A stretch of DNA of 64,000 nt from an uncultured Desulfobacter sp. (GTDB taxonomy: Bacteria; Desulfobacterota; Desulfobacteria; Desulfobacterales; Desulfobacteraceae): contig NZ_OY762229.1 in assembly GCF_963665355.1 (NCBI RefSeq), positions 4,402,001 through 4,466,000 on the forward strand, in the 5' to 3' direction. Below the pieces are notes generated by a model. The model was given only the letters and a program-made list of their open reading frames with translations, did no database searches and was not told the origin of the DNA. A program made the translations under genes and the position numbers. Each line of letters opens with the position of its first letter. The first letter of the stretch is position 1. This document shows positions 1-40,721 of this stretch, piece after piece.

Positions 1-300
1 GCATGGAGAGAAACGCGGACAAAAAGAGGTCGTATTCCGGATTCGTTATGGTCTATGGCTGTAGATCTTTATTATTCTTATGGCCTGAGTATAAATAAGA
101 TTGCCCGAACATTCAGGCTCAACTATACAGACCTGCAATTACACATCACAAAAAAACCGCCGGTTGTCATGCAACCCATTGAGGATGAGTCAGCCATAAA
201 CCCGTTGATAAAAGATAACCCCAAAGCCAGCCGTTTCGCATTGTCAAAAATGCTGTGCAGGGAATGGAACTGGGTTCAGCCAAACGTGTCCCTTCGGTAA
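1..300 (+). pseudogene. Decayed IS66-type accessory genes (HTH protein joined to DUF4338 start)
   Basis: The open frame enters from outside the window. Its first part matches the helix-turn-helix protein encoded at 32129-32545 (shared pattern LYxxxGxSINKIAR). After about residue 60 it switches to the N-terminus of the DUF4338 protein encoded at 32962-33879 (shared CREWNWVQ). An internal deletion has therefore joined two genes that are separate in the intact element. The frame ends in the terminal repeat of another IS66 fragment that begins at 286. It is a remnant with no expected function. Confidence 0.7.
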
Positions 301-611
301 GCATGCACAAAGGATTTTTTTAGGGCAGCTGAATTCGTCACAAGAGAGGGGCGGGTATGCTGCGATTATATTACGCTGACGCGGTTTTGTAATTCCAAGG
401 CATCCACCGGGAAGGATCAGTTCTCAGCTCAGTTGCGTTATTCAGCAATGAAACCAGATAATCAAATGGATTGACCCTCATCAGATTGCAGGTCTGAATC
501 AGGCTCATGAACATATCACCAACAAAAGCACCATGTTCTGTTTTATAAAATAGTGAATTTTTCCGATGCAGGAGGCTTTGTTTCAAGCTGCGTTCGCACA
601 AATTGTCAATT
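286..611 (-). mobile_element. Right-end fragment of an IS66-type element
   Basis: The left edge (286) begins GTGTCCCTTCGGTAAGC, the same terminal repeat as the intact element at 32044-35483. The minus-strand frame 371-611 encodes the last ~80 residues of an IS66 TnpC (pattern CERSLKQ...LFYKTEHGAF...PWNYK), close to the TnpC encoded at 33845-35398. The 85-bp distance from stop codon to terminal repeat is the same in both. The fragment is inserted in reverse orientation into the remnant at 1-300 and is cut off at its other end by an unrelated transposase fragment. Confidence 0.75.
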
Positions 612-1009
612 CGGACGGTACGATATCAAAAAAGCATTTGCCGCTTTATGACGCCACAATGGGTGATATAGATTCTGCCTTCGAACTTCTTGAAATATAC
701 CTGACAGAATTGGATGTCACCGCAGCCAAACGGGTTATTTTTTGTTGTGACGGTACACGCAGTTATTGGAAACGGACAGGCCCGTTGGCTAAAAGACTCG
801 GGATTTCGATCCATTACGAAGTGATTGACTACACCCATGCAAAGCAAAACTTACATGAAATCGTAGACAAATTGCCCAAAAGGATTTCTATAAAAGAAAA
901 AAGCAAAATCGTAGAATATTGGAAGAGCCTGCTATGGGACGGCAAATTCGTGGATCTCGGAAAAGAAATTGTAAAACAGATTATATATCCGAATCAATGT
1001 TGTTTTTAA
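612..1009 (+). pseudogene. Transposase fragment, family uncertain
   Basis: About 130 residues are readable. They include a catalytic-core-like stretch FCCDGTRSYW followed by EVIDYTHAKQNLHEIVDKL, a D...D-H-A pattern seen in DDE transposases such as the ISKra4/ISLre2 groups. There is no proper start, because the 5' part runs into TnpC debris at about 611. The C-terminus ends in non-matching residues. I read it as an internal piece of a dead transposase. The family assignment is tentative. Confidence 0.4.
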
Positions 1010-1333
1010 GAAGCCAGCGTCTGTCCGGGGGATGGAATATGTTAACTAACAATATATTCATGCAAAATCGGTCACTTTGCTCATGCCACTAAATGGGAAT
1101 GCCCCCGGGCGTTTCCCTCGTGAATTTTTTGCCATTATTTCTTCTCCAAGATTTGAATCAGGGAGATTATATGTACCAAATTTTGAAGGAAGCAGCGGCG
1201 GGGTCTGTCGGCGGGATTGGCAGGGTATGATTTTTATTTTATTGGCAGGGTATCGCGGCGGGATATCTGCCCGTTACATTATTTTGTTATGAAGCTGCAG
1301 AGTAAGCGTTACACTATATGAATCTTACCATTC
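1010..1333. other. Intergenic, no gene recognised
   Basis: No convincing coding frame or structured element is seen. The short open frames in this stretch have no recognisable protein pattern. Confidence 0.5.
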
Positions 1334-1388
1334 AGTTAAAATTTTCTCTTGCCAAAGCCAATTGAGTTTGTTAACAGATCTTTCTGTT
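1334..1388 (+). repeat. Diverged copy of the tRNA-Arg upstream region
   Basis: This block aligns with 40722-40776 immediately upstream of the intact tRNA-Arg gene (roughly 80% by eye). Both copies keep a promoter-like TTGCCA box, a ~17-base spacer and TAACAG/TAAAAG, followed by CTGTTGC just before the tRNA start. The duplication therefore includes the tRNA promoter as well as part of the gene. Confidence 0.7.
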
Positions 1389-1428
<40 letters not shown>

Positions 1429-1450
1429 TACTTGAGCTTTCTTGAGTTAT

Positions 1451-1496
1451 AAATCGCTGAAACTTTTAAGCACCAACGGTTTCCAGCGATTTTTTG
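1451..1496 (+). terminator. Rho-independent terminator
   Basis: The stem AAATCGCTGAAAC / GTTTCCAGCGATTT has a ~14-base loop and is followed directly by a run of T. It lies 22 bp after the truncated tRNA and would end any transcript from the duplicated tRNA promoter. Confidence 0.7.
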
Positions 1497-2194
1497 CTTT
1501 TTGTCAAAGCTCAACTTTTTTCTTTAAAACGCCCTTAAGCCGCATGGCTATGCGGGTTTTCACCCCGTACCCGAAAAGTCCGGTAAGGACTCCGCCCAAG
1601 ACCCTTGCCAGGCTTACGTTCCCAATACATGGGCACTCCCAAAATACCCGAACTACACCCGAAGTCCAAAATCTTCGGGTGCAAGTTTCATCGATCCATA
1701 AACAAAGGTGCTGCAATTATTTGCTGGAACTTGAGTGTTCTATGCCCTGCAGACAGTGATTTAGGACCCCAAAATATCAGTACGCTTTTTTGGAGTTGAA
1801 CTTCAGGTAAAAATTTATATTTGTTAAATATCTTTATGTACATGCGCACAGCTGATTTTTAATAATAGTCCGGGCCTTTGGACCGATTATTGGCGGGGTT
1901 TCGTTTTTGACATAGTCTGCGGTGTGTGAAGTTTGAAAGGCTCCCACCTCCACAATGCTTCTGTTATTGAGCGCTGCTTTGAAATAGGCCTTGGCGAGCA
2001 TAGATAGATTTATGTTGCGAGCGGGTCTAACCCACTAAATTTAAAGGAAGTTTTCATTACCCGCCGTGCAAATCAATATCATTATAAAATTCAGGATGTT
2101 AAAAACGATTTTAAAAATTTTAAAAACCACTGGCAACATAATTTTTAGTTCTGCTACATACCCCTCCAAGGCTAGCAAAAGCTGCTTCAGTAAG
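1497..2194. other. Intergenic, no gene recognised
   Basis: About 700 bp without a credible gene. It holds a partial repeat of ACACCCGAAG-type sequence also seen just upstream of the intact tRNA (near 40681), consistent with the tRNA-proximal duplication. Nothing else was recognised. Confidence 0.4.
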
Positions 2195-3214
2195 TCATAG
2201 ACTGTCTAACCAGACAAGAATTTCAGCATTATTCTTCCAGTCAATCAGTTCATCAATTTTCTTGTCATGATTTATTTTCGATTGCATGTATTCAATGAGC
2301 TTATTCTGGATTTCCCGCTTTTTTGACAAGTCCAGCTGCAGATAGATCATTGTTGACTCAACACTTTGGTGGCCAAGACGATTTTTGATGGTCGATACCG
2401 GATCTCCTGAGGTGACCATATTGACCGCACACGAGTGCCTGAAGCAATGAACCGGGCTCAATCCTTTCAACCGTTTTGGCGACAATGTTTTGGTCAGGTA
2501 TTTCCGACAGATTTTGTTAATACCGTGCCGGGTCATTCCCCGCTTCCGCTGGTTTATAAATAACCGCTGGCTAAATATAGGGATGGGATCTACCCGGTGG
2601 TTGATAATGTAATCCGAGATCAACGAAGAGGTTCTGGGGCATAAATTAATAAGCCGGTACCGGTTCCCCTTGCCCAGGACCGCAATGGTTTCATTCTCAG
2701 GATCAAAATAATCAAATTCCAAAGTGGCTATCTCACTGGCCCGGGCACCGGAGTCATAGAGGAGATGGAGAATGGTAAAATCCCTCATGCCTTCTTTCTT
2801 TTTCAGGTCAACGGCACTGAACACCCTCATGATCTCTTCCGGGTATAAAAACCCCATCACCTTTTTTTGAGCCCTCTTCTGTGGGATGATCAGGAGCGTT
2901 TCAGCGATTTGTTTTTTGTCAGGATGCATGAACCGAATCATCTTGGCCAGTGACTTGATTACAGCCAGACGGTTATTTCGGGTCTGAATGCTGTTTTTCC
3001 GATCTTTTTCAAGGTGGTGCAAAAAAGCCAGCACCGCTTCAGGCGTTAAATGTTCGATTCTCAAAGATTTGATTGTCATCTTGTGATAATCGGCCAGAAA
3101 ATGCAGCAACAAAGAAAAGGTCTGCCGGTAAGCCTTGATGCTATGCTCGCTGGTCCCTTTTATCCGGGGCAAATATTCATAAAAATATTGATGCAGGCAG
3201 GAGGACAGTCTCAT
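2195..3214 (-). CDS. Tyrosine recombinase, third gene of recombinase trio 1 (RitC-like)
   Basis: A 339-residue site-specific recombinase of the phage-integrase superfamily. The catalytic Arg lies in SGARASEI, the His/Arg pair in HCFRHS, the second His in LGHQS, and the nucleophile in STMIYLQ. The N-terminal SAM-like core-binding domain spans about residues 1-110. The start overlaps the upstream recombinase stop by 4 bp (ATGA), so the two are translationally coupled. It is most similar by eye to the interrupted third recombinase of the trio at 17899-23418, including the same gene order. Three overlapping recombinases in fixed order is the definition of RIT elements. Confidence 0.9.
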   Translation of the reverse strand: MRLSSCLHQYFYEYLPRIKGTSEHSIKAYRQTFSLLLHFLADYHKMTIKSLRIEHLTPEAVLAFLHHLEKDRKNSIQTRNNRLAVIKSLAKMIRFMHPDKKQIAETLLIIPQKRAQKKVMGFLYPEEIMRVFSAVDLKKKEGMRDFTILHLLYDSGARASEIATLEFDYFDPENETIAVLGKGNRYRLINLCPRTSSLISDYIINHRVDPIPIFSQRLFINQRKRGMTRHGINKICRKYLTKTLSPKRLKGLSPVHCFRHSCAVNMVTSGDPVSTIKNRLGHQSVESTMIYLQLDLSKKREIQNKLIEYMQSKINHDKKIDELIDWKNNAEILVWLDSL

Positions 3215-4185
3215 ACATCCTCGCTTCTTAACATTGAAAAATCAAGCATCTGGCGGCGATGCTCTGCATCCACCACCCTCAAATATTTGGTTGTATATTT
3301 ATACTCACTGTGGCCCATGTAAGCGGCCAGTACCGGTAAGGCATTTTGGGGAGACTTTCCCTGTTGTTTAATCCGTTTTAGGGTATTTACGGCAAATGAA
3401 TGACGAAGGGAGTGCCGCGTCGGGTTGCTGAAGTTTGTCGCACCAATGATTCTTCTGGGCTGCTCCAGGTTAAGAATTGAAATCGCTTTCTTAAATTTCC
3501 AACGCATGTAAGAACGGGATAGCCCTTTTCCATTTTCTTTTATCAGCAATAAAGGATGATTATCTGCGGTAAAAAAACACTGGCGAACTTTCAGCAGATT
3601 GTCTATTGCACAAGAAATCGCCTTGGGTACCGGAAGCAGTCGATCTTTTTTAAACTTTGTCTTTTCAATATAAATTGTCCTTTCTTCAGGCCGGTAATTG
3701 TTTTTCAGTAAGTTGAGGGTTTCTGATATCCTTAATCCGCACCGGGCCATCAGCAAAAAGGAAATGTAACCGCTGAAATCGGCGAGGTAATATCTTTCGG
3801 TCTTTCGCATCAATTTAATGACAACCTCCAGCAAAAGTTCAGTTTCTTCCGGTGAAAAAATAAAAGGGATAATTTGATTTTCCGGCAGTTCAGCAATCTC
3901 CTGCAATGGATTTTCCCGGATCAAATCCTGGCGGATCAGGTAATTGAAAAACATTTTGAACGTACGAAAAAACGTGTTGATGGAACGGTTTTCACAATTA
4001 AGATCTGAACGGAGCCGGATGAAGAACAATGGATCAAATGATGTCAGGGTTACCTTCTTTTCGGCAACATACCGATCCAGTAATCCAAGGCTGACTATCA
4101 GCATTTTATCAGAATATCCCAACTGAAGACGGTATTCGATGAAATTCTCAATATGTTCGGCAAGACAACTTTTAAAGCGTTTCAT
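3211..4185 (-). CDS. Tyrosine recombinase, second gene of trio 1 (RitB-like)
   Basis: A 324-residue integrase-family recombinase. Catalytic motifs are CGLRISETL, HSLRHSF, MGHSEYK and the Tyr in TTKYL. The stretch LPVLAAYMGH matches LPVLKTYMGH in the second recombinase of the other trio (19116-20102), supporting positional orthology. It overlaps the upstream recombinase by 14 bp and the downstream one by 4 bp, so all three are presumably translated from one minus-strand mRNA. In RIT elements the three recombinases are thought to act together; individual roles are not known. Confidence 0.9.
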   Translation of the reverse strand: MKRFKSCLAEHIENFIEYRLQLGYSDKMLIVSLGLLDRYVAEKKVTLTSFDPLFFIRLRSDLNCENRSINTFFRTFKMFFNYLIRQDLIRENPLQEIAELPENQIIPFIFSPEETELLLEVVIKLMRKTERYYLADFSGYISFLLMARCGLRISETLNLLKNNYRPEERTIYIEKTKFKKDRLLPVPKAISCAIDNLLKVRQCFFTADNHPLLLIKENGKGLSRSYMRWKFKKAISILNLEQPRRIIGATNFSNPTRHSLRHSFAVNTLKRIKQQGKSPQNALPVLAAYMGHSEYKYTTKYLRVVDAEHRRQMLDFSMLRSEDV

Positions 4186-31629: not shown

Positions 31630-31946
31630 GCTTTCTTATCAAAAAAATATAAAATCGAGTTCTAAATTCTAAATAGAAGACTTTGTCTATCTATAAACGC
31701 TCAGGGGCATTATCATGAGAGCGGTGGATGAATAGTCCAGTGCTCTGTTATTTGTAACTTCAAAGCCGGAGCTTTTACATTTGAAGTCAACACATTGTTA
31801 TTCCATGACTTTTCCGACTCAACAGGGATTAAAATTCGGGTGTGTCCCACCTTTTACATAAGATGAAATTTTAATCTAAAGTAAATTCTATTTGACGCGG
31901 TGGCGAACAATTATCATTTTCCAATATAGACCTGAATGAGGAAAAG

Positions 31947-32043
31947 ATGATAAAAATGCCTGTAATAATACAAAGTCCGTTCAACTCTGCCGTTGTGGAA
32001 GCAAATCTGGATATATTCACCCGTTCATATACTGAAGAAGAGA
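31947..32043 (+). pseudogene. Outer IS transposase, N-terminal part
   Basis: Start MIKMPVIIQSPF at 31947, preceded by GAGGAAA. Reads 32 codons, ending in the TSD AGAAGAGA where the IS66-type element is inserted. Continues at 35492. Confidence 0.85.
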
Positions 32044-32128
32044 GTGTCCCTTCGGTAAGCGTGCATGAAATAATCATCCCCGGGTGATACTATCGGTTCC
32101 AGCATAGACATTGCAAAGGAGAGAACCG

Positions 32129-32545
32129 ATGAACAACCAACCATTAACAAACGAACAATCAGCCGCATTGGAAAAAGCCCAGCAACTTTTTTCAAATTGG
32201 CGAAATAGTAAAACCGGACGGCCCCGTATATCGGATAATCTATGGCAAACCGCAGCAGATCTTTACCACATCCAGGGTATGAGTATAAATAAGATTGCCC
32301 GAGGCTTGGGACTGAATTACACAGCACTTAAAGAAAAAATTATTGACATGCCTCCTGCTGAAATTAATCTGCCTGCAGACGATGAATCTTCCATGTTTAT
32401 TGAAATGGTATCCCTGCCGGAGAGTTTCAACTGCGTTATAGAAATAGAAAATCAAACCGGCATAAAAATGCGCATGTGCTTCAACGGCAGGGCAGATCCT
32501 GCAGTGATCAGTCTTGGCAGATATTTACTAGCTGGTGCGCCATGA
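32129..32545 (+). CDS. HTH protein of IS66-type element (TnpA position)
   Basis: 138 residues. Contains a resolvase-like helix-turn-helix: SDNLWQTAADLYHIQGMSINKIARGLGLNYTALKEKI (~40-75). It takes the place of TnpA and overlaps the tnpB start by 4 bp (ATGA), but it differs from the TnpA at 23699. The C-terminal ~45 residues (FNCVIEIENQTGIKMRMCFNG) resemble the beta-rich TnpA tail. GGAGAG lies eight bases before the start. Probably binds element DNA. Confidence 0.8.
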   Translation: MNNQPLTNEQSAALEKAQQLFSNWRNSKTGRPRISDNLWQTAADLYHIQGMSINKIARGLGLNYTALKEKIIDMPPAEINLPADDESSMFIEMVSLPESFNCVIEIENQTGIKMRMCFNGRADPAVISLGRYLLAGAP

Positions 32546-32898
32546 TCCAGGTCACACCACATATGCGGATACTGCTTGCTCCGGAGCCCGTAGATTTTCG
32601 AAAAGGAATCGACGGCCTGGCCAGTATATGCCGAAAGGTCCTGCAATCAGATCCCTTTTCAGGATACCTGTTCGTATTTATTAACCGAAGACGAACGGCC
32701 ATCAAGGTTTTATGCTATGACAGCCAGGGGTTCTGGCTTTGCCAAAAGCGGCTCTCCAAGGGGCGTTTCAACTGGTGGCCCAAAAGGGATCAGTCTGCCG
32801 GCCGGTGTCTTGAAGCGCATGAGCTTCAGATGCTGCTTTGGAATGGTGATCCGTTTCATACCCGGGCTGCTCCCGTATGGCGAAAACTGTCCGTATAA
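32542..32898 (+). CDS. tnpB: IS66 TnpB (Orf2)
   Basis: 118 residues with the family pattern APEPVDFRKGIDGLASICRKVL, FSGYLFVFINRRRTAIKVL and YDSQGFWLCQKRL. It is coupled to the upstream HTH gene. The C-terminus (HELQMLLWNGD...APVWRKLSV) matches longer versions of Orf2. Function in transposition unknown. Confidence 0.92.
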   Translation: MIQVTPHMRILLAPEPVDFRKGIDGLASICRKVLQSDPFSGYLFVFINRRRTAIKVLCYDSQGFWLCQKRLSKGRFNWWPKRDQSAGRCLEAHELQMLLWNGDPFHTRAAPVWRKLSV

Positions 32899-32961
32899 AT
32901 TTTTCAGCCGGTTTCATTTTTCACTTGCGTTCCACGGTATATTTCGGCATATACGGTGGTT

Positions 32962-33879
32962 ATGGACAACGACATTGTACTCACATACCGTGGCAGAAGC
33001 GCGACTAAGGCTGATATTGAATTTATCAGGCTGTTGATCGACGACAATCCCACAGCAAGCCGCCGCGCTCTGTCACAGATATTGTGCCGGGAATGGAACT
33101 GGGTTCAGGCCAACGGCAGCCTTCGTGATATGATCGCCCGGGGATTTATGCTTGAACTCCATAGAAACGGGCATATTAATCTTCCGGCCAGAAAACACAA
33201 CCCGCCCAACCCGTTTTTAAACCGCAAAAAGCCGGAACAACCGGAAATCGATCAAACCCCGGTGACGATGACGCTCAGGGAAATAAGCCCCCTTGATATT
33301 GTACTGGTAAAAAACACACCCAATGAACCTTTATTTAACAGCTTGATTGAGCATCATCATTACCTGGGATATTGCCATCCTGTGGGAGAGCAACTTAAAT
33401 ATATGGTCTTTGCCGACAAACGGCCGGTGGCATGTTTTTCATGGTCATCGGCACCCCGGCATATCGGTGCCAGAGACCGACATATCGGCTGGAAGAAACA
33501 GCACCGGGATCACAACCTTCGCTATATCGCCTATAACAGCCGGTTTCTGATCCTGCCCTGGTTCCGGGTACCTCACCTGGCCTCATGGTTGTTAGGGTAT
33601 ATGGCCAGGAATTTGTCCAGGGACTGGGAGCGTATTTACTGCCATCCGGTCTATTATCTTGAGACATTTGTTGACACCGAATTATTTGCCGGCACCTGTT
33701 ATAAAGCGGCAAACTGGCACTATCTGGGTGATACCACCGGACGGGGAAAACAGGAAAACAGGCATATAAAAACCCGCTCCATCAAGGCGGTCTGGGGATA
33801 TCCCCTGATCCGCGATTTTCGACAACTCATGACAAGGCTCCCCAATGGAAGCGCTGAACCTGACAGAAGACGAGCTTGA
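32962..33879 (+). CDS. DUF4338 (DruA-like) protein carried by IS66-type element
   Basis: About 305 residues; I prefer the ATG at 32962 to the GTG at 32956. An N-terminal winged-helix segment (DNPTASRRALSQILCREWNW) is followed by the DUF4338 core: EHHHYLGYCHPVGEQLKY, ARDRHIGWKKQHRDHNLRY, NSRFLILPWFRVPHLASWLLG, DWERIYCHPVYYLETFVD, CYKAANWHYLGDTTGRGK. DUF4338 is the domain of DruA in the Druantia antiphage system and also occurs in transposons. The catalytic activity is unknown. It overlaps tnpC by 35 bp, so it is an integral gene of this element and not a passenger with its own promoter. Confidence 0.85.
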   Translation: MDNDIVLTYRGRSATKADIEFIRLLIDDNPTASRRALSQILCREWNWVQANGSLRDMIARGFMLELHRNGHINLPARKHNPPNPFLNRKKPEQPEIDQTPVTMTLREISPLDIVLVKNTPNEPLFNSLIEHHHYLGYCHPVGEQLKYMVFADKRPVACFSWSSAPRHIGARDRHIGWKKQHRDHNLRYIAYNSRFLILPWFRVPHLASWLLGYMARNLSRDWERIYCHPVYYLETFVDTELFAGTCYKAANWHYLGDTTGRGKQENRHIKTRSIKAVWGYPLIRDFRQLMTRLPNGSAEPDRRRA

Positions 33880-35398
33880 TGCGCTGATTGAACGGGCGGA
33901 ATCCGGTCGTCTTGCCGATGGGGATGTTGATACAATCAAGGCCATGATCAATGCCGTCAAAGTCTTGAGCCGGGCGGTCAGTGACAAGGCATCCTCCATT
34001 AAAAAGCTTTTGGCCATGGTGTTCGGCCCAAAGACCGAAAAAAAGGATAAAGTTCTCAAAAATCGGCCTCCCGGAACCCGAAATCAAGATAAATCAACGA
34101 CTATAAAGGGACATGGCAGACGGGCTGCCGACGATTTCACAGGTGCCGACCGACAATCGGTTACCCATGGAGACCTCAAACATAAAGACACCTGTCCCGA
34201 ATGCCTCAAAGGGATTGTTTATCGACTCAAAAAACCGGGCCGGGTCATCTGTTTTACCGGTCAGGTACCGGTAACGGCTACCGTTTATGAACTGGAAAAA
34301 CTCCGCTGCAATCTGTGTGGCATGGTCTTTACGGCAAAAGCTCCAGAAAACAGAACCGGTAGAGATTATGATGCCAGTGCCCTGGCAATGATTGCCATTC
34401 TTAAGTATGGCTGTGGTTTTCCCTGGAGCCGGCTGGAAAAACTTCAGGAAAGTTTTGGTATACCACTTCCTGCCACCACCCAGTGGGATAAGTCCGAAAC
34501 TGCTGCAGACCTCATCTATCCGGTTTTCCGTGAACTGGCTTATCAAGCAGCCCAGGGAGAGGTTTTTCACAATGATGATACCACCATGAAAATCTTGTCT
34601 CTGATGAAGGAAAACAAGGACAGAACAGCAGGTGAAAGAACCGGGATATTTACCACGGGAATCATCTCCCGATTCGATGATGGCAGACAGATTGCGCTGT
34701 TCTATACCGGACGAAATCATGCGGGTGAAAACATCAGCGATCTTTACAGGAAAAGAGATGCCGGCAGACCGGCACCGCTTCAGATGTGTGACGCCCTGTC
34801 ACGCAATATTAGTGAAGCGTTCAAGGCGATTTTGTGCAATTGCCTGACACACGCCCGCAGGAATTTTGTAGATGAGATTGACAATTTTCCTGATGAAGCC
34901 GCCTATGTCATTGAAATGCTCGCTGAAGTTTACTGTATAGACGCCAGGACCAAAGAGCAGAAAATGTCACCAGACCAACGGCTAGTCTATCATAAAAAAC
35001 ACAGCGGTCCTCTGATGACAGAACTTGAAGCCTGGTTGAATCGCCAGACGGATGAAAATCTGGTGGAGCCGAACTCCGGGCTTGGCAAGGCAATCACGTA
35101 CATGAAAAACCACTGGGCCAAATTGACGCGGTTTTTGGAGATACCGGGGGCTCCTCTGGATAATAATATTTGTGAACAAAGCTTGAAACGCTGCATTCAA
35201 CACCGGAAAAACTCATTGTTTTACCGAACAGAGCATGGCGCCTTCATTGGAGACATGTTCATGAGTTTGATCCATACCTGCCGCCTGATGCGAATCAATC
35301 CGCTTGATTACCTGGTCACCCTGATACAAAATTCTTCCGCCTTATTCAAAGACCCTTCCAAATGGTTGCCTTGGAATTATAAGGACAACGCTCTGTAG
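33845..35398 (+). CDS. tnpC: IS66 TnpC transposase
   Basis: 517 residues. N-terminal coiled coil ending in LAMVFGPKTEKK (~45-65), zinc-type CPECLKG...CNLCGM (~118-160), and a DDE domain with FHNDDTTMKI (first Asp), QMCDALSRN (second Asp, Asp-Ala variant) and the Glu in PLDNNICEQSLKRCIQHRKNSLF. The C-terminal tail GDMFMSLIHTC...PWNYK is preserved also in the fragment at 371-611. Differs from the TnpC at 24408, so the two IS66-type elements are not recent copies of one another. Confidence 0.9.
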   Translation: MEALNLTEDELDALIERAESGRLADGDVDTIKAMINAVKVLSRAVSDKASSIKKLLAMVFGPKTEKKDKVLKNRPPGTRNQDKSTTIKGHGRRAADDFTGADRQSVTHGDLKHKDTCPECLKGIVYRLKKPGRVICFTGQVPVTATVYELEKLRCNLCGMVFTAKAPENRTGRDYDASALAMIAILKYGCGFPWSRLEKLQESFGIPLPATTQWDKSETAADLIYPVFRELAYQAAQGEVFHNDDTTMKILSLMKENKDRTAGERTGIFTTGIISRFDDGRQIALFYTGRNHAGENISDLYRKRDAGRPAPLQMCDALSRNISEAFKAILCNCLTHARRNFVDEIDNFPDEAAYVIEMLAEVYCIDARTKEQKMSPDQRLVYHKKHSGPLMTELEAWLNRQTDENLVEPNSGLGKAITYMKNHWAKLTRFLEIPGAPLDNNICEQSLKRCIQHRKNSLFYRTEHGAFIGDMFMSLIHTCRLMRINPLDYLVTLIQNSSALFKDPSKWLPWNYKDNAL

Positions 35399-35491
35399 AC
35401 TTGTTGTAGCTGCTATAAATTTGGTCTTCAGGGAAGACTCATTCCTGAAAAAAGCAGGATACACATGCTTGCCGGAGGGACACAGAAGAGA

Positions 35492-35908
35492 ATACAATTA
35501 TAGAATTTGATATGAGGAAGCGGGATTGGCAAAAAGAAGCCGGTATAAGTCATGATGTTTATTGGCCCCCAAAGACATATAATGTAGACATACACGAATT
35601 TTCAGTATTTCATAATCCGATTGTTTACCGGTTTATATCAGCTCAGGCCTGGTATTATGATGACCATAACAGACAAATCTGGTTTACCCCGAACATCAGA
35701 GAGGTATCAGCACAACAACATGTAAGCAGAGGTGTGTTGCGTTTGGCATGTTTTCTGGCAGTTATCTGCGGAGTCAGTCTGAGGAATATTGCAACAATAT
35801 TCACAGTTTTGTTTCGGATTCCTGTAAGCAAGTCGTCTGTGAAAAGGTGGATTGACACAATCGGAAGCAGCCTTCCTTCGGAAGAGGAAATTTTAAAACA
35901 ACTTCTGG
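35492..35908 (+). pseudogene. Outer IS transposase, middle part
   Basis: 139 codons from NTIIEFDMRKR to EEEILKQLL, open throughout and in frame with both neighbours once the insertions are removed. Includes an N-terminal HTH-like stretch CGVSLRNIATIFTVLFRIPVSKSSVKRW. Ends in the TSD CTGG of the IS21 element. Confidence 0.85.
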
Positions 35909-36088
35909 CCCGGATGGCCACCCAAACTCCCCCACTTGTGGCCACCTCAAAATCCCCCACCTAAACGTCAGTAAAATCGGCTGTAATCGCTGATAATTAA
36001 AAAATTTAGGGAAAAAGGCGACAGAACGTTTAACGTCCCATGTATCACTTGATCAATGCATACATGCGAGTTGGAAAGGAGGAACGTT

Positions 36089-38722
36089 TTGAAACCACAA
36101 AAACGAGCAGCAATGACCACCTTGCTCAACCAGAATGTCAGTCAGCGTGAAATAAGCAGAAATACCGGCATAGACCGTAAAACAATCCGGAAATACATTC
36201 AGCAAAATGATCTTGGGCGAATTCAAAATCCTCCACCGGTGGCCATTTCAAATTCCCCCACCCTGGCCACCGGCCGGATTGAGAATCCCCCATCCCGGCC
36301 ACCGGTGTATTCAGTGGACGCAAAACAGATACCGTTCCATGCACGATCTGCCTGCGAACCGCACCGGCAATGGATAGAAAAACAGGTCCGGTTAGGCCGG
36401 AATGCGATGTCCATCTACCAGGACCTGGTGGAGTTGTTCAGTTTTAACCATAAATACAACAGCGTAAAGCGATTTGTCCGCAAGTTAAAGCACAAAGCCC
36501 CCAAACAGTTCGACCGGCTTGAATTTTTACCAGGAGAAGAAGCCCAGGTGGATTATGGCCAAGGCGCCTTGACCATGGGGCCATCCGGCAAATACCAACG
36601 GCCTCGACTTTTTGTCATGACCCTGAAGTACTCCCGCCGTTCCTTCCGTAAGGTTGTCTGGAAGTCCAGCCAAGAGACATGGGCCAAGCTGCATGAAGAG
36701 GCTTTCCGGTATTTTGGCGGTTGTGTTCAGTACGTGGTTTTGGACAACTTAAAGGAAGGTGTCATAAAACCGGACATCTATGAACCGGAGTTGAATCCGG
36801 TTTATGCGGCCATGCTCAACCACTATGGTGTGGTGGCAGATCCGGCCCGGGTGAGAGATCCCAACCGCAAGGGCACTGTTGAAAATGCGGTCCAGCATAC
36901 CCAGGATACGGGGTTGAAGGGGCGGCGGTTCGACACCATTGAGGAGCAGAATGAATGGTTGATGCACTGGGAGGAAGTCTGGGCATCAAAGCGGATACAC
37001 GGCCGGATGAAGCGGCAGGTCGAACAAATGTTTCAGGAAGAAAAGCCCCACCTGCATGCCTTGCCGCTGAAAGGATTTGATTACTTTAGGCAGGAAACCC
37101 GGACAGTCTATGATGACGGCACTGTCCAGGTGGATCAATCCTATTATTCAGCACTTCCGGCACCTCTGCATGAAGATGTCATCGTCCGAATTTATGAATA
37201 TGATGTCGAGATCATTGATCCCCGGACCATGGAAAAAATTCGCACCCATGTCAAAAGTGACCGGCCGGGAAGGGTTAAGATGATGCCGGAGGACAGAATT
37301 TTCAATCCATCCCGGCAAACAACCTACCTTTTAAATAAGGCTGAAAGCATAGGACCGCAGACCCGGCTGCTGTGCGAACTGATTTTCAGGGAACAGGGGA
37401 GGACAGGACAGCGCCGGCTGCAGGGGATCGTTAACCTTGCCAGAAAGCATGAGGCCGGTTGCATTGAGTCTGCTGCAATAATAGCCATCGAAAAAGGTCT
37501 GCGAAGCTACAAATCATTCTGTCGACTGGTTGAAAACCAGAAAATATCAGTCCCCATCCAGGATGGAAGCCGCATATGTCAGGCGCATAAACTGATCCGA
37601 CCATCAGATGATTATGGCCGGTTTTTCAACACATTTGCTGCCGGCAACCCGCCTGCAATCTCAAAAGAGGACCTTCCGAAGGTATGGCAAAATGCTGATT
37701 GGCTGAAAGTTCTGACTGTCTTCGGTCTTGAGCCCCAAACGCATAAAAATAATGAAATCTGGATTAAGTCCCCTTTTTCAGAGGAAAAGAACGCCTCATT
37801 GCATATGCAATCCGGGCAGAATGTGTACAAGGATTTCAGCAGCGGCAAAGGCGGCGGCATACTCAATTTCTGCCAGGATCTGTTGGCCCTTCGCGGCAAA
37901 CAGATGAACTGCTATGAAGTGGCTGCATGGATGGTTGATCAAGGGGTTTCTATTTTGAATCAGACTGCGACCGTTGGGCAAAAGCCGGTCCAAAAGCAGA
38001 GCAGTGCAAATCCGCCGGTGGCTGTGGACCTGCAGCCGTATTTGCAATCTTCGCATCCGGTGCTGGATAAGCGGGGCATCTCCAGTCAAGCCTGCCGGTA
38101 CCTGGGATGCGGTTACCTGCCGGAAAGAGAGCACGGTAAGCGTTCCCCATTAAACGGCAGGCTGGTTTTTCAGGTACGTGGCGTTAATCAGGATTTAAAA
38201 CCTGTTGTGTTGAGCCATGTGGGACGTGCATTGACAGAGGAACAGTCAGCCGACGACGGCAGGTACTGGGGTTTTCCATTTTCTAAAAAGCTGGAGATAT
38301 ACAACCAGGACAAGCTGCTTCTGGACCCTGGGGCCAAAAAACAGGTTGAGCAACACGGTCTGACCCTTGTGGAAGGCTTCTTTGATGTGGCGGCCCTCGT
38401 GTCGGCCGGTTGCCTGAATGCAGGTGCCATAATGGGGGCGCATCTGTGTGAGGAACAGGTTCGCCGGCTCCAATTTTTAGCGTCGCATATCAACATCAGC
38501 ATCGTCAATCTCTTCCTGGACCGGGATAGAGCAGGCAAGGAAGGGGCCTTAAAGGCTGCATCATTATTGGAGCAACATGGATTTATCGTAAGCGTATTTA
38601 ACTGGGATCAGAAATTTGAGCGGCCGGGATGTTTGCCCGTGGGAATAACGTCAGGCATCAAAGATCCGGCTGATATGTCCGGATCTCAGCTCAGATACTT
38701 AAGAAAAACAGGCATAATTTAA
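36089..38722 (+). CDS. istA: IstA transposase fused to CHC2/TOPRIM primase-like module
   Basis: I prefer the TTG start at 36089 behind AAAGGAGGA; an ATG at 36056 is in frame (888 residues, numbering below). Residues 28-50 are an HTH (REISRNTGIDRKTIRKYI). The DDE integrase core has D166 (AQVDYGQ), D230 (VVLDNL) and E276 (GTVENAV). IstA ends near 510. Residues ~548-635 form a degenerate CHC2-like fold (SPFSEEKNASLHM, YKDFSSGKGGGILNFCQDL) without the zinc cysteines. Residues ~767-850 are TOPRIM: E773 (VEGFFDV) and D822/D824 (LFLDRDRAGKEGA). The frame is continuous. Ordinary IstA proteins are about 500 residues, so the extra ~375 are a true C-terminal fusion. Confidence 0.9.
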   Translation: MKPQKRAAMTTLLNQNVSQREISRNTGIDRKTIRKYIQQNDLGRIQNPPPVAISNSPTLATGRIENPPSRPPVYSVDAKQIPFHARSACEPHRQWIEKQVRLGRNAMSIYQDLVELFSFNHKYNSVKRFVRKLKHKAPKQFDRLEFLPGEEAQVDYGQGALTMGPSGKYQRPRLFVMTLKYSRRSFRKVVWKSSQETWAKLHEEAFRYFGGCVQYVVLDNLKEGVIKPDIYEPELNPVYAAMLNHYGVVADPARVRDPNRKGTVENAVQHTQDTGLKGRRFDTIEEQNEWLMHWEEVWASKRIHGRMKRQVEQMFQEEKPHLHALPLKGFDYFRQETRTVYDDGTVQVDQSYYSALPAPLHEDVIVRIYEYDVEIIDPRTMEKIRTHVKSDRPGRVKMMPEDRIFNPSRQTTYLLNKAESIGPQTRLLCELIFREQGRTGQRRLQGIVNLARKHEAGCIESAAIIAIEKGLRSYKSFCRLVENQKISVPIQDGSRICQAHKLIRPSDDYGRFFNTFAAGNPPAISKEDLPKVWQNADWLKVLTVFGLEPQTHKNNEIWIKSPFSEEKNASLHMQSGQNVYKDFSSGKGGGILNFCQDLLALRGKQMNCYEVAAWMVDQGVSILNQTATVGQKPVQKQSSANPPVAVDLQPYLQSSHPVLDKRGISSQACRYLGCGYLPEREHGKRSPLNGRLVFQVRGVNQDLKPVVLSHVGRALTEEQSADDGRYWGFPFSKKLEIYNQDKLLLDPGAKKQVEQHGLTLVEGFFDVAALVSAGCLNAGAIMGAHLCEEQVRRLQFLASHINISIVNLFLDRDRAGKEGALKAASLLEQHGFIVSVFNWDQKFERPGCLPVGITSGIKDPADMSGSQLRYLRKTGII
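36225..36306 (+). repeat. End-like repeats inside istA
   Basis: Three units resembling the IS21 terminal repeats (CCGGTGGCCATTTCAAATTC, ACCCTGGCCACCGG, CCCGGCCACCGG with intervening CCCCCA) lie within the istA coding sequence, encoding the Pro-rich linker NPPPVAISNSPTL. They may extend the transposase-binding array of the left end. Confidence 0.6.
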
Positions 38723-38751
38723 GGGATGAAAAAAGAAAAAAAGGAGGCATC

Positions 38752-39531
38752 ATGAGTATGACAATCACAGAAATCGAAAAACAATTAAAGGTTCTCAGGC
38801 TGAGCGGTATGCTGGCAACACTTGAAAGCCGGGCCTTGCAGGCCAATCAGTCTAATGCAGGTATGGTTGAGGCATTATCCTGGCTGATTCAAGATGAGCT
38901 GGACCATCGTTCATCCAGCTTAAGACAGCGCCGGTTTAAGGCTTCTGGGCTTGATGAGATGAAAACATTGACAGAATTTGACTGGGGTTTTAATCCCAAA
39001 CTCCCCAAAAAGGAGATTTATGAGCTGGTGACAGCCAAGTTCATACAAAACGGCGAAGATGCCCTGCTGATAGGTTCCCCGGGTACTGGGAAGAGCCATA
39101 TTGCCAAAACCATCGCCCATGCGTCCGTCCAATTGTTCCAGAAAACGGTTTACCGGGAAGCCCATGTTTTTTTTGAAGACATGTTTGAGGCTGAGCAGAT
39201 TCAAAATCGAAAAAAGGTCTTCAAACTGTTTACACAGGCGGATCTTTTGGTTATTGATGATTTGTTCCTCCGGAAGAAAATGCCTAAAGATGCAGCTGAC
39301 TACCTGCTGGATGTCATCATTAACCGATATGCCAGAAGGAAAAGTACCGTGATCACTTCCAATCGACCCATTGAAGACTGGGGTCTGCTTCTAAAAGACA
39401 ATGCAGCATCATCGGCCATACTGGACCGGTTGCTTCACCATGGTCATCTGCTGAAATTTGAAGGGAAGAGTTACCGGCTCAAAGAGGCCGCCCAGAGGCT
39501 CTCCCGGCTGCCCAATAATAAAGAGGGATGA
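38752..39531 (+). CDS. istB: IstB ATPase of IS21 element
   Basis: 259 residues. N-terminal helical domain (~1-65: IEKQLKVLRLSGMLATLESRA), then an AAA+ ATPase: Walker A IGSPGTGKS (~103), Walker B LLVIDDLFL (~160), sensor STVITSNRPIEDW (~200) and arginine-finger region ILDRLLHHGHLLKF. IstB remodels target DNA and recruits IstA in IS21 transposition. AAAGGAGG precedes the ATG; 29 bp after istA. Confidence 0.95.
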   Translation: MSMTITEIEKQLKVLRLSGMLATLESRALQANQSNAGMVEALSWLIQDELDHRSSSLRQRRFKASGLDEMKTLTEFDWGFNPKLPKKEIYELVTAKFIQNGEDALLIGSPGTGKSHIAKTIAHASVQLFQKTVYREAHVFFEDMFEAEQIQNRKKVFKLFTQADLLVIDDLFLRKKMPKDAADYLLDVIINRYARRKSTVITSNRPIEDWGLLLKDNAASSAILDRLLHHGHLLKFEGKSYRLKEAAQRLSRLPNNKEG

Positions 39532-39644
39532 AAAAAGGAGAAAATGAGAAATATTGAGAGCATAACTTAGATCTTAATATTCTGTCGCCGGGGGATTTTG
39601 ACCCGGCCACGGGTGGGGGATTTTAAAGTGGCCATCCGGGCTGG

Positions 39645-40522
39645 AACAAAAAAAATCAGATCAGTGTCATATTGACGGTTATTATCCCATGGGAACCAAC
39701 AATTGTGTGATGGTTCTAAAAGATGAGTCGGACCGTATTCTTATTACTTATGAAGCCGCTTCGGAGAATGCTGATGATGCCCTTGCATTTTTACAAAATA
39801 TAAAAAATTGCGGAATGACAGTTACTTCGGCATTCTCAGATTATTCAGACAGCTATGTGAAAGCAATCAGAGAGGTATTTCCTGATGCTAAATTTCAGGC
39901 TGATCATTTTCATACGGCGAAAAATATATGGAAACATCTAAAGAAATCCCTTCTGGAATATAGAAGAAACCTGAAAGCGGAAGGTGAAAAAAATAAGGAT
40001 GAAGATATGCTGGAAATTGCCTCAGAACTTTGGAAAATGCGATGGGTATTATTAAAAAAGCCTTCCAACTTGACTGAAAATGAACGTGAAAAGATAGAAG
40101 CACTTGAAAAGATAGACAGCGGCTTTATTTCAACATTTCGTTCCATAATTGATCAGATTGTAAATATTTTTGATCATTCAAATACGGATACTCAAGCAAA
40201 AATCAAACTGAAGAATTTAAAAAATCAGATTGAAAAACTCGAAAGCAGTTACCTGGATAAGATAACGAAGTTTTTTTCTGATCACTGGGATGCTGCCATG
40301 CAGTATTTGAAGAAAAAAGGGTTGGCCAAATATCGGCGCTCCTCAAATTCGGAATCGGGTATGAGGCTTCTTAGACGTCTGGAAAAAAATCACGACGGCA
40401 TAAGGTCAGTGGAAACACGAAAACACTATATAAAAATTTACCAGGCAATAAAATATTTGTCGGCTGATGTTACTGAGTTCATAAATTCAGGGACAGAAAA
40501 AACCTATATAATGGATATGTAA
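39645..40522 (+). pseudogene. Outer IS transposase, C-terminal part
   Basis: 292 codons continuing from 35908 as LLEQKKSDQCHIDGYYPMGTNN. First catalytic Asp in CHIDGYYPMG; further DDE-type stretches SAFSDYSDSYVKAI and FQADHFHTAKNIW; Glu probably in the C-terminal region RSSNSESGMRLLRRLEKN. Large helical insert ~340-420. Stop at 40520-40522 and the right terminal repeat follows. With all three parts the protein has 463 residues and no internal stop, so it was intact before the two insertions. Family not firmly assigned. Confidence 0.8.
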
Positions 40523-40721
40523 AAGGTGGGACACACCCTAAAATTCGACAGAGTGCTTTGAAACGTCATTAAAGCATCAGAAAATTATAAACCCAAATCA
40601 AAAATGTATGGCGATGAGAACCTCCTATATATAAGCTTCTTGACGGTTTATAGCATTTTTTAAAACCTTTTTATGAACCACACACCCGAGGTACACCCGA
40701 AGTTGGTGAAAATTTGTTTTT

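Follow-up and report, generated by a model that had tools for sequence, protein, structure and literature searches.

An IS21-family transposase gene joined to a primase-type module in an insertion sequence of an uncultured Desulfobacter

The window, a stretch of 64,000 nucleotides from an uncultured Desulfobacter sp. (contig NZ_OY762229.1), includes an insertion sequence in which one frame of 888 amino acids encodes a complete IS21-family IstA joined to a primase-type CHC2-like/TOPRIM module. The fusion almost certainly represents a conserved family of elements. A fusion of IstA with a primase, or of another transposase with TOPRIM, was not found among the titles and abstract openings listed in the literature searched, which covered few subscription papers and no preprints; the architecture could well be present, unremarked, in domain databases. 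What is rated as new is the addition of a primase core to an otherwise known IS1631-type IS21 element.

The fused gene and its element

The istA frame runs without a break into the extra C-terminal part, as claimed in the initial annotation, while the start given there, 36089, is a later in-frame codon and the frame opens at ATG 36056 (Table 1). The NF033546 model for IS21 transposases gave 266.1 bits on residues 23–337 (cut-off 160), and rve (residues 173–269) was over its Pfam cut-off. The reported complete DDE triad was borne out by this match and by the aligned fused proteins, where D166, D230 and E276 are conserved wherever covered (19, 20 and 21 of 21 rows, respectively, the rest being cut by contig ends). 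The usual IstA end lies at approximately residue 524 and is followed by a linker and a DnaG-like primase core of about 350 amino acids. An IstA over the family cut-off is present in 26 of the 59 relatives, in frames mostly of about 430–555 aa, some shorter and truncated, and nine IS1631-type IstA have 523–585 aa; by these lengths the extra part measures about 360 residues (~375 in the initial annotation). Among the rows listed for the 59 relatives only fused frames reach 889 aa; one genome (G005) has a 765-aa frame with a weak IS21 match under the cut-off.

The TOPRIM domain read from the sequence was recovered by Pfam profile search, both Toprim_4 (residues 771–848, 9e-10) and Toprim_2 (1e-8) being over their cut-offs. 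The CHC2-like fold had been described as degenerate and its zinc ligands as lost, and both descriptions held: Zn_ribbon_DnaG matched residues 567–609 under its cut-off (20.5 vs 24.9), and the ligands C-x2-H and C-x2-C are replaced by S-P-F-S/T and D-F-S-S. A profile of 23 related modules matched the DnaG zinc-domain chain 1d0q_A at 7.5e-5, and the DnaG chain 2au3_A at 5.9e-18, the latter in two stretches corresponding to the CHC2 to pre-TOPRIM part and to TOPRIM. The module alone was matched by the DNA primase family phrog_47 over residues 8–340 of 350 (2e-23). The dnaG model TIGR01391 produced a two-stretch match at 3e-23, its 82.2 bits being far under the cut-off of 283.6.

Table 1. Features of the fused element and of the interrupting IS66-type element; residue numbers refer to the fused protein.
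Feature	Position	Strand	Basis or remark
Left target site duplication CTGG	35905..35908	+	flank reading
Complete IS21-family element with istA-primase and istB, 3732 bp	35909..39640	+	second genomic copy and its target; two G015 copies align over 1–3732
Left terminal inverted repeat CCCGGATGGCCAC, then AAAATCCCCCA-type end boxes	35909..35921	+	flank reading
istA-primase fusion gene	36056..38722	+	888 aa; open from ATG 36056 to stop at 38722
IstA helix-turn-helix and DDE catalytic part (residues 23–337; D166, D230, E276)	36122..37066	+	NF033546 4e-79; DDE conserved
End-type repeat boxes within istA coding frame	36224..36305	+	encode QNPPPRPP in most members
Mu-transpos_C_2 domain (residues 336–401)	37061..37258	+	Pfam 1.7e-6, over cut-off
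Junction and linker directly past the IstA-type end (..HKLIRPSDDYGRFF), residues ~525–539	37628..37672	+	alignment with nine unfused IstA ending here
CHC2-like domain without zinc ligands, and spacer (residues 540–660)	37673..38035	+	Zn_ribbon_DnaG 4e-4; 1d0q_A profile match
DnaG-collinear part ahead of TOPRIM (residues 661–765), bearing SHxGR motif	38036..38350	+	host DnaG alignment; phrog_47
TOPRIM domain (E773, D777, D822, D824) and D870 tail	38360..38722	+	Toprim_4/Toprim_2 over cut-off; 21/21 conserved
istB, AAA+ helper ATPase, 259 aa	38752..39531	+	NF038214 207.8 bits (cut-off 200); PF01695 2e-49
Right terminal inverted repeat CCCGGATGGCCAC, then end boxes	39628..39640	-	flank reading
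Right target site duplication CTGG	39641..39644	+	flank reading
IS66-type element in ISL3-type IS	32044-35483		8-bp duplication AGAAGAGA
DruA-like gene in IS66-type element, upstream of transposase	32956-33879		Pfam DruA 3e-31

The element shares with the IS21 family the perfect 13-bp inverted tips with end boxes at both ends, a DDE IstA over the curated cut-off and an istB directly downstream; it departs from the family in that IstA, mostly of about 430–585 aa in the unfused proteins compared and without further domains, here has 888 aa and a primase core. Target duplications of the IS21 family are 4–8 bp long, and four copies of the fused element have CTGG, ATAAT, TAAC and ATTT, the last in L044. 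Inspection of the flanks of L038 and L043 showed clean tips and no matching target duplication. The CTGG site occurs singly in a sister copy of the IS that the element interrupts, its two aligned pieces sharing 4 bp. The tips read CCCGG, the terminal CA of the IS5376 type being absent. Because the unfused IS1631 copy L074 also has non-CA tips (CCCCG), such tips seem to mark a subgroup rather than the fusion.

The second copy in the same genome (L006) has lost the first 55 bp and differs by 3 mismatches in 3677 bp, the protein being 99.7% identical. Three copies occur in a genome of the same genus (G015), 94% identical to the window element and 99.7–99.9% to each other. Of these, two complete copies have the duplications ATAAT and TAAC, and the third lacks the 3' end and most of istB. 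The near-identical copies and the target duplications are taken as evidence of movement of the whole fused element, which in G015 was recent. No joined end of the kind that a circle or dimer would leave was found in the 193 genomes searched with the exact tips, a search that the tips of diverged members would escape.

Distribution, conservation and relatives of the fusion

Module matches at E 1e-3 or better were present in 126 of the 193 genomes of relatives. Eight genomes, including the genome of the window, had a fused-kind match or a contig-end piece, and one of these (G188) also bears a stand-alone relative; in the other 118 the module matches were weak (E 2.8e-7 or worse) and lay for the most part in frames as long as DnaG. 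Scanning of the genome contigs detected 29 loci. IstA and the module form a single frame in 19 of them, five running off the contig end on the 5' side, and the remaining loci consist of a contig-end piece (L045), a broken frame (L061), four stand-alone proteins and four weak matches. The module is adjoined by istB in all 21 fused, cut or broken loci, in L042 by residues 2–170 only, so that the proposed search for other fusions beside istB brought 19 further single-frame cases. Together with a frame of 924 aa in G530, the single-frame copies number 25 (19 scan loci, two in the own genome, three in G015 and one in G530), L051 and L052 apparently being a single element that was binned twice. Since other genomes carry this fusion too, the possibility that a stop codon was lost only in this copy fails.

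The hosts were named deltaproteobacterial or Desulfobacterota in the records of 18 of the 21 loci. The other three, L048 (Neomarinimicrobiota), L055 and L056 (both Acidobacteria), lie on contigs of 3.8–11.6 kb from metagenome bins, which makes their hosts uncertain. Related copies were not confirmed from viral contigs, and no plasmid record among the best 5000 covered 80% of the fused protein. With the module alone, three DnaG-annotated proteins were matched in plasmids. Phages gave four weak matches.

The nearest unfused IstA found were of the IS1631 type, from plasmids of alpha- and betaproteobacteria (Bradyrhizobium and others). The nine proteins compared are 53–59% identical over the transposase, istB is annotated next door in eight (none in L077), and AAAATCCCCC-type boxes are shared; the IS1631 copy L074 has a 5-bp duplication, TCGAG, next to its CCCCG tips. 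The IS1631-type proteins differ in ending without a primase module: they align with the fused proteins to '..HKLIRP..DYG.FF' and stop soon after, whereas the fused proteins continue via the linker. L074 measures 2712 bp, some 1 kb less than the fused element. Within the phylum, no unfused close IstA was found among the seven of 395 genomes that matched at E 1e-90 or better, with at most three candidates scored per genome; each of the eight IstA places in these seven genomes had a fusion, a copy with a break inside the module (G551), a copy truncated at a contig end or an interrupted one. IS5376 and the prototype IS21 likewise have a DDE transposase IstA, multiple terminal repeats and the helper ATPase IstB (PMC10122671, PMC11208146); they differ in an IstA without a primase part and in the CA at the element tip (PMC10122671) in place of CCCGG.

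The TOPRIM residues E773, D777, D822 and D824, as well as D870, were invariant in the 21 fused proteins, and H721 and R724 of the SHxGR motif were constant in 25 of 25 rows, stand-alone proteins included. The second Asp of the DxD motif, at the position of D824, is lost in the stand-alone protein L058. NG86 omega values were 0.06–0.19 for the IstA catalytic part (ten pairs) and 0.09–0.33 for the whole primase module (computable for eight of the ten pairs), with YN00 giving 0.06–0.44 for the module; 7 of the 40 pair-region cells of the analysis remained without a value. The primase part evolved faster than IstA in all eight pairs by NG86, the pair L055–L056 being about equal by YN00. The module is therefore under purifying selection, though less constrained than the transposase.

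The IstA tree separated the nine unfused proteins from 20 fused ones with a support of 1.000 (L050 was omitted as too short), and the module tree separated 19 fused modules from the stand-alone proteins and DnaG with a support of 0.983. Set A3 was without L052 and G015, which are near-duplicates. Because the fused proteins group together, one fusion event would be the simplest reading; the IstA tree is without a deeper outgroup and unfused IstA of other phyla were sampled through plasmids only, so that this falls short of proof.

The CHC2-like, pre-TOPRIM and TOPRIM parts follow each other in the same order as in DnaG-type primases, with which the module also shares the TOPRIM acids and the GR and (K/R)Y..P motifs. 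When the module is aligned with the host DnaG, R724 coincides with the GR motif and R/K736 with the conserved K of KYLNSP, residues that in DnaG line the active site. Differences from DnaG include the average identity of 21% to 12 DnaG proteins, the missing zinc ligands and C-terminal parts, and the joining to a transposase. The zinc motif is present in 12 of 13 DnaG-candidate loci (own genome and L016–L027), L016 being the one without it. The fused protein stops after the D870 tail, at a point from which DnaG continues; the C-terminal domain of DnaG is helicase-binding.

The stand-alone CHC2/TOPRIM proteins (L057–L060) have a similar module length and a mean identity of 37% to the fused modules, but are separate genes outside insertion sequences. 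A relaxase or coupling-protein match was found beside all four: relaxase beside L036 (the place of L058), L057 and L059, and coupling protein beside L036, L059 and L060. A ParA-type match was also present beside L060, and three of the ten neighbours scanned had no match. The simplest reading is that the fusion drew on a module of the type that conjugative or mobilizable elements carry, which suggests a traffic of primase cores between conjugative elements and insertion sequences. Capture of the host DnaG as the nearest source was considered and rejected on the mean identities (37% to the stand-alone mobile-element proteins vs 21% to DnaG). The stand-alone proteins form a zinc-less family of their own (L036 5736–6878, L057, L059 and L060), in records named Desulfobacteraceae, Acidobacteriota, Saprospiraceae and Woesearchaeota.

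Possible role of the module in transposition

IS21 is placed among the copy-out-paste-in families, in which an intermediate is replicated (PMC9333248). The term cut-and-paste used for the transposase in the initial annotation is thus doubtful, and a replication role becomes more plausible, since the copy-out pathway includes replication of the intermediate. In this pathway a figure-eight made by the transposase is resolved into donor and circle by replication from a flanking 3' OH (PMC9333248, PMC7780238). PMC11208146 describes the role of the IstA C-terminal region as undefined and IstB as a DnaC/I paralogue, and PMC10122671 predicts the last 45 IstA residues to be mostly flexible.

The function that we infer for the module, priming of DNA synthesis in replicative (copy-out) transposition, is tentative, with somewhat less than an even chance. 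IstA would cut one strand and join it to the other element end, and in the copying of the figure-eight one new strand would be primed by the flanking 3' OH. If copying is asymmetric, the displaced strand would need a separate primer, and the tethered module could make a short one wherever the transposition intermediate exposes single-stranded DNA. Synthesis of the second strand (or replication through the strand-transfer fork) would then be freed from chance recruitment of the host primase, with IstB, as a DnaC/DnaI paralogue, still acting mainly in target capture. A primase encoded beside a relaxase would, in parallel, serve the strand moved in conjugation. A stronger version, in which transposase, DnaC/DnaI-like ATPase and tethered primase make up a minimal priming machine of the insertion sequence itself and start the copy-out instead of the host DnaG, appears rather unlikely. 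The other proposal of the initial annotation, recruitment of the host replisome, found no specific support, the protein ending where DnaG goes on to its C-terminal part.

Several points speak against priming: the zinc ligands and the C-terminal part of DnaG are missing, the module evolves faster than IstA, the stand-alone relative L058 has lost the second Asp of DxD, and joined ends were not found with the exact tips in 193 genomes. Moreover, since the flanking 3' OH primes the figure-eight in the published copy-out model (PMC9333248), a primase is not strictly needed. The main rival to priming is a module that makes no primers but serves as a DNA- or fork-binding tether, steering insertion to single-stranded or replicating DNA or holding the transpososome at a fork. 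The zinc-less CHC2-like fold and the faster evolution would suit such a tether, and fork-linked transposition is suggested by the authors for another copy-out element (PMC7780238); pure binding would, however, not require the TOPRIM acids, and their retention in all 21 fusions argues against it, leaving the tether rather unlikely. That the TOPRIM part is a nuclease with the second strand of the intermediate, or its flaps, as substrate is improbable. TOPRIM does occur also in OLD-family nucleases (PMC8649781) and the family profile weakly matched ribonuclease M5 (E 0.88), but the 14 PDB entries ranked above the latter were DnaG-type primases (nine, the best at 5.9e-18), T7-type primase/helicases (four) and a single 'putative protein', and DnaG is collinear with both the CHC2-like and the pre-TOPRIM part.

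A tail with a structural or regulatory role, in oligomerisation, IstA–IstB control or stability, was judged slightly more improbable again: in the published complexes, the IstA region to which the module is joined is flexible and for the most part unresolved (PMC11208146, PMC10122671), but the catalytic residues of the module are conserved and the homology to primases extends across nearly the whole module. Chance read-through or an assembly artefact has a negligible probability against 25 single-frame copies across many assemblies, selection on the module and a single fused group, and the lost-stop or artefact reading was rejected on this recurrence, selection and tree. As a whole, the data are best explained by a conserved fused family combined with priming in replicative transposition, an explanation for and against which the chances are about equal. 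The maintenance of the fused form as a family with conserved active sites suggests that certain insertion sequences come equipped with a starter of DNA copying. In copy-out elements the engagement of replication after strand transfer is usually left to 'the host', and a conserved transposase with a primase core offers a concrete handle on this step.

Internal boxes and surroundings of the element

The end-type repeat boxes within the istA frame were compared in 15 fused and seven unfused elements and were present in all 15 of the former and three of the latter. The third bases of five fourfold columns in the box region had a constancy of 0.98, while the mean over 146 other columns was 0.56, and one of 147 contiguous windows was as constant as the box region, which had been picked after being noticed. 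These figures are based on 13 of the 16 full-length fused genes, with G015, L040 and L052 omitted as near-duplicates. The boxes look like a site acting at the DNA level, perhaps a candidate internal transposase-binding or enhancer site.

The element is part of a nested arrangement (31838–40538), in which the IS66-type and the IS21-primase elements both interrupt an ISL3-type IS whose ends match over 23 bp. The second IS21-primase copy (L006) lies at a different site inside another copy of the same ISL3-type IS, and also has beside it a copy of the DruA-bearing IS66-type element.
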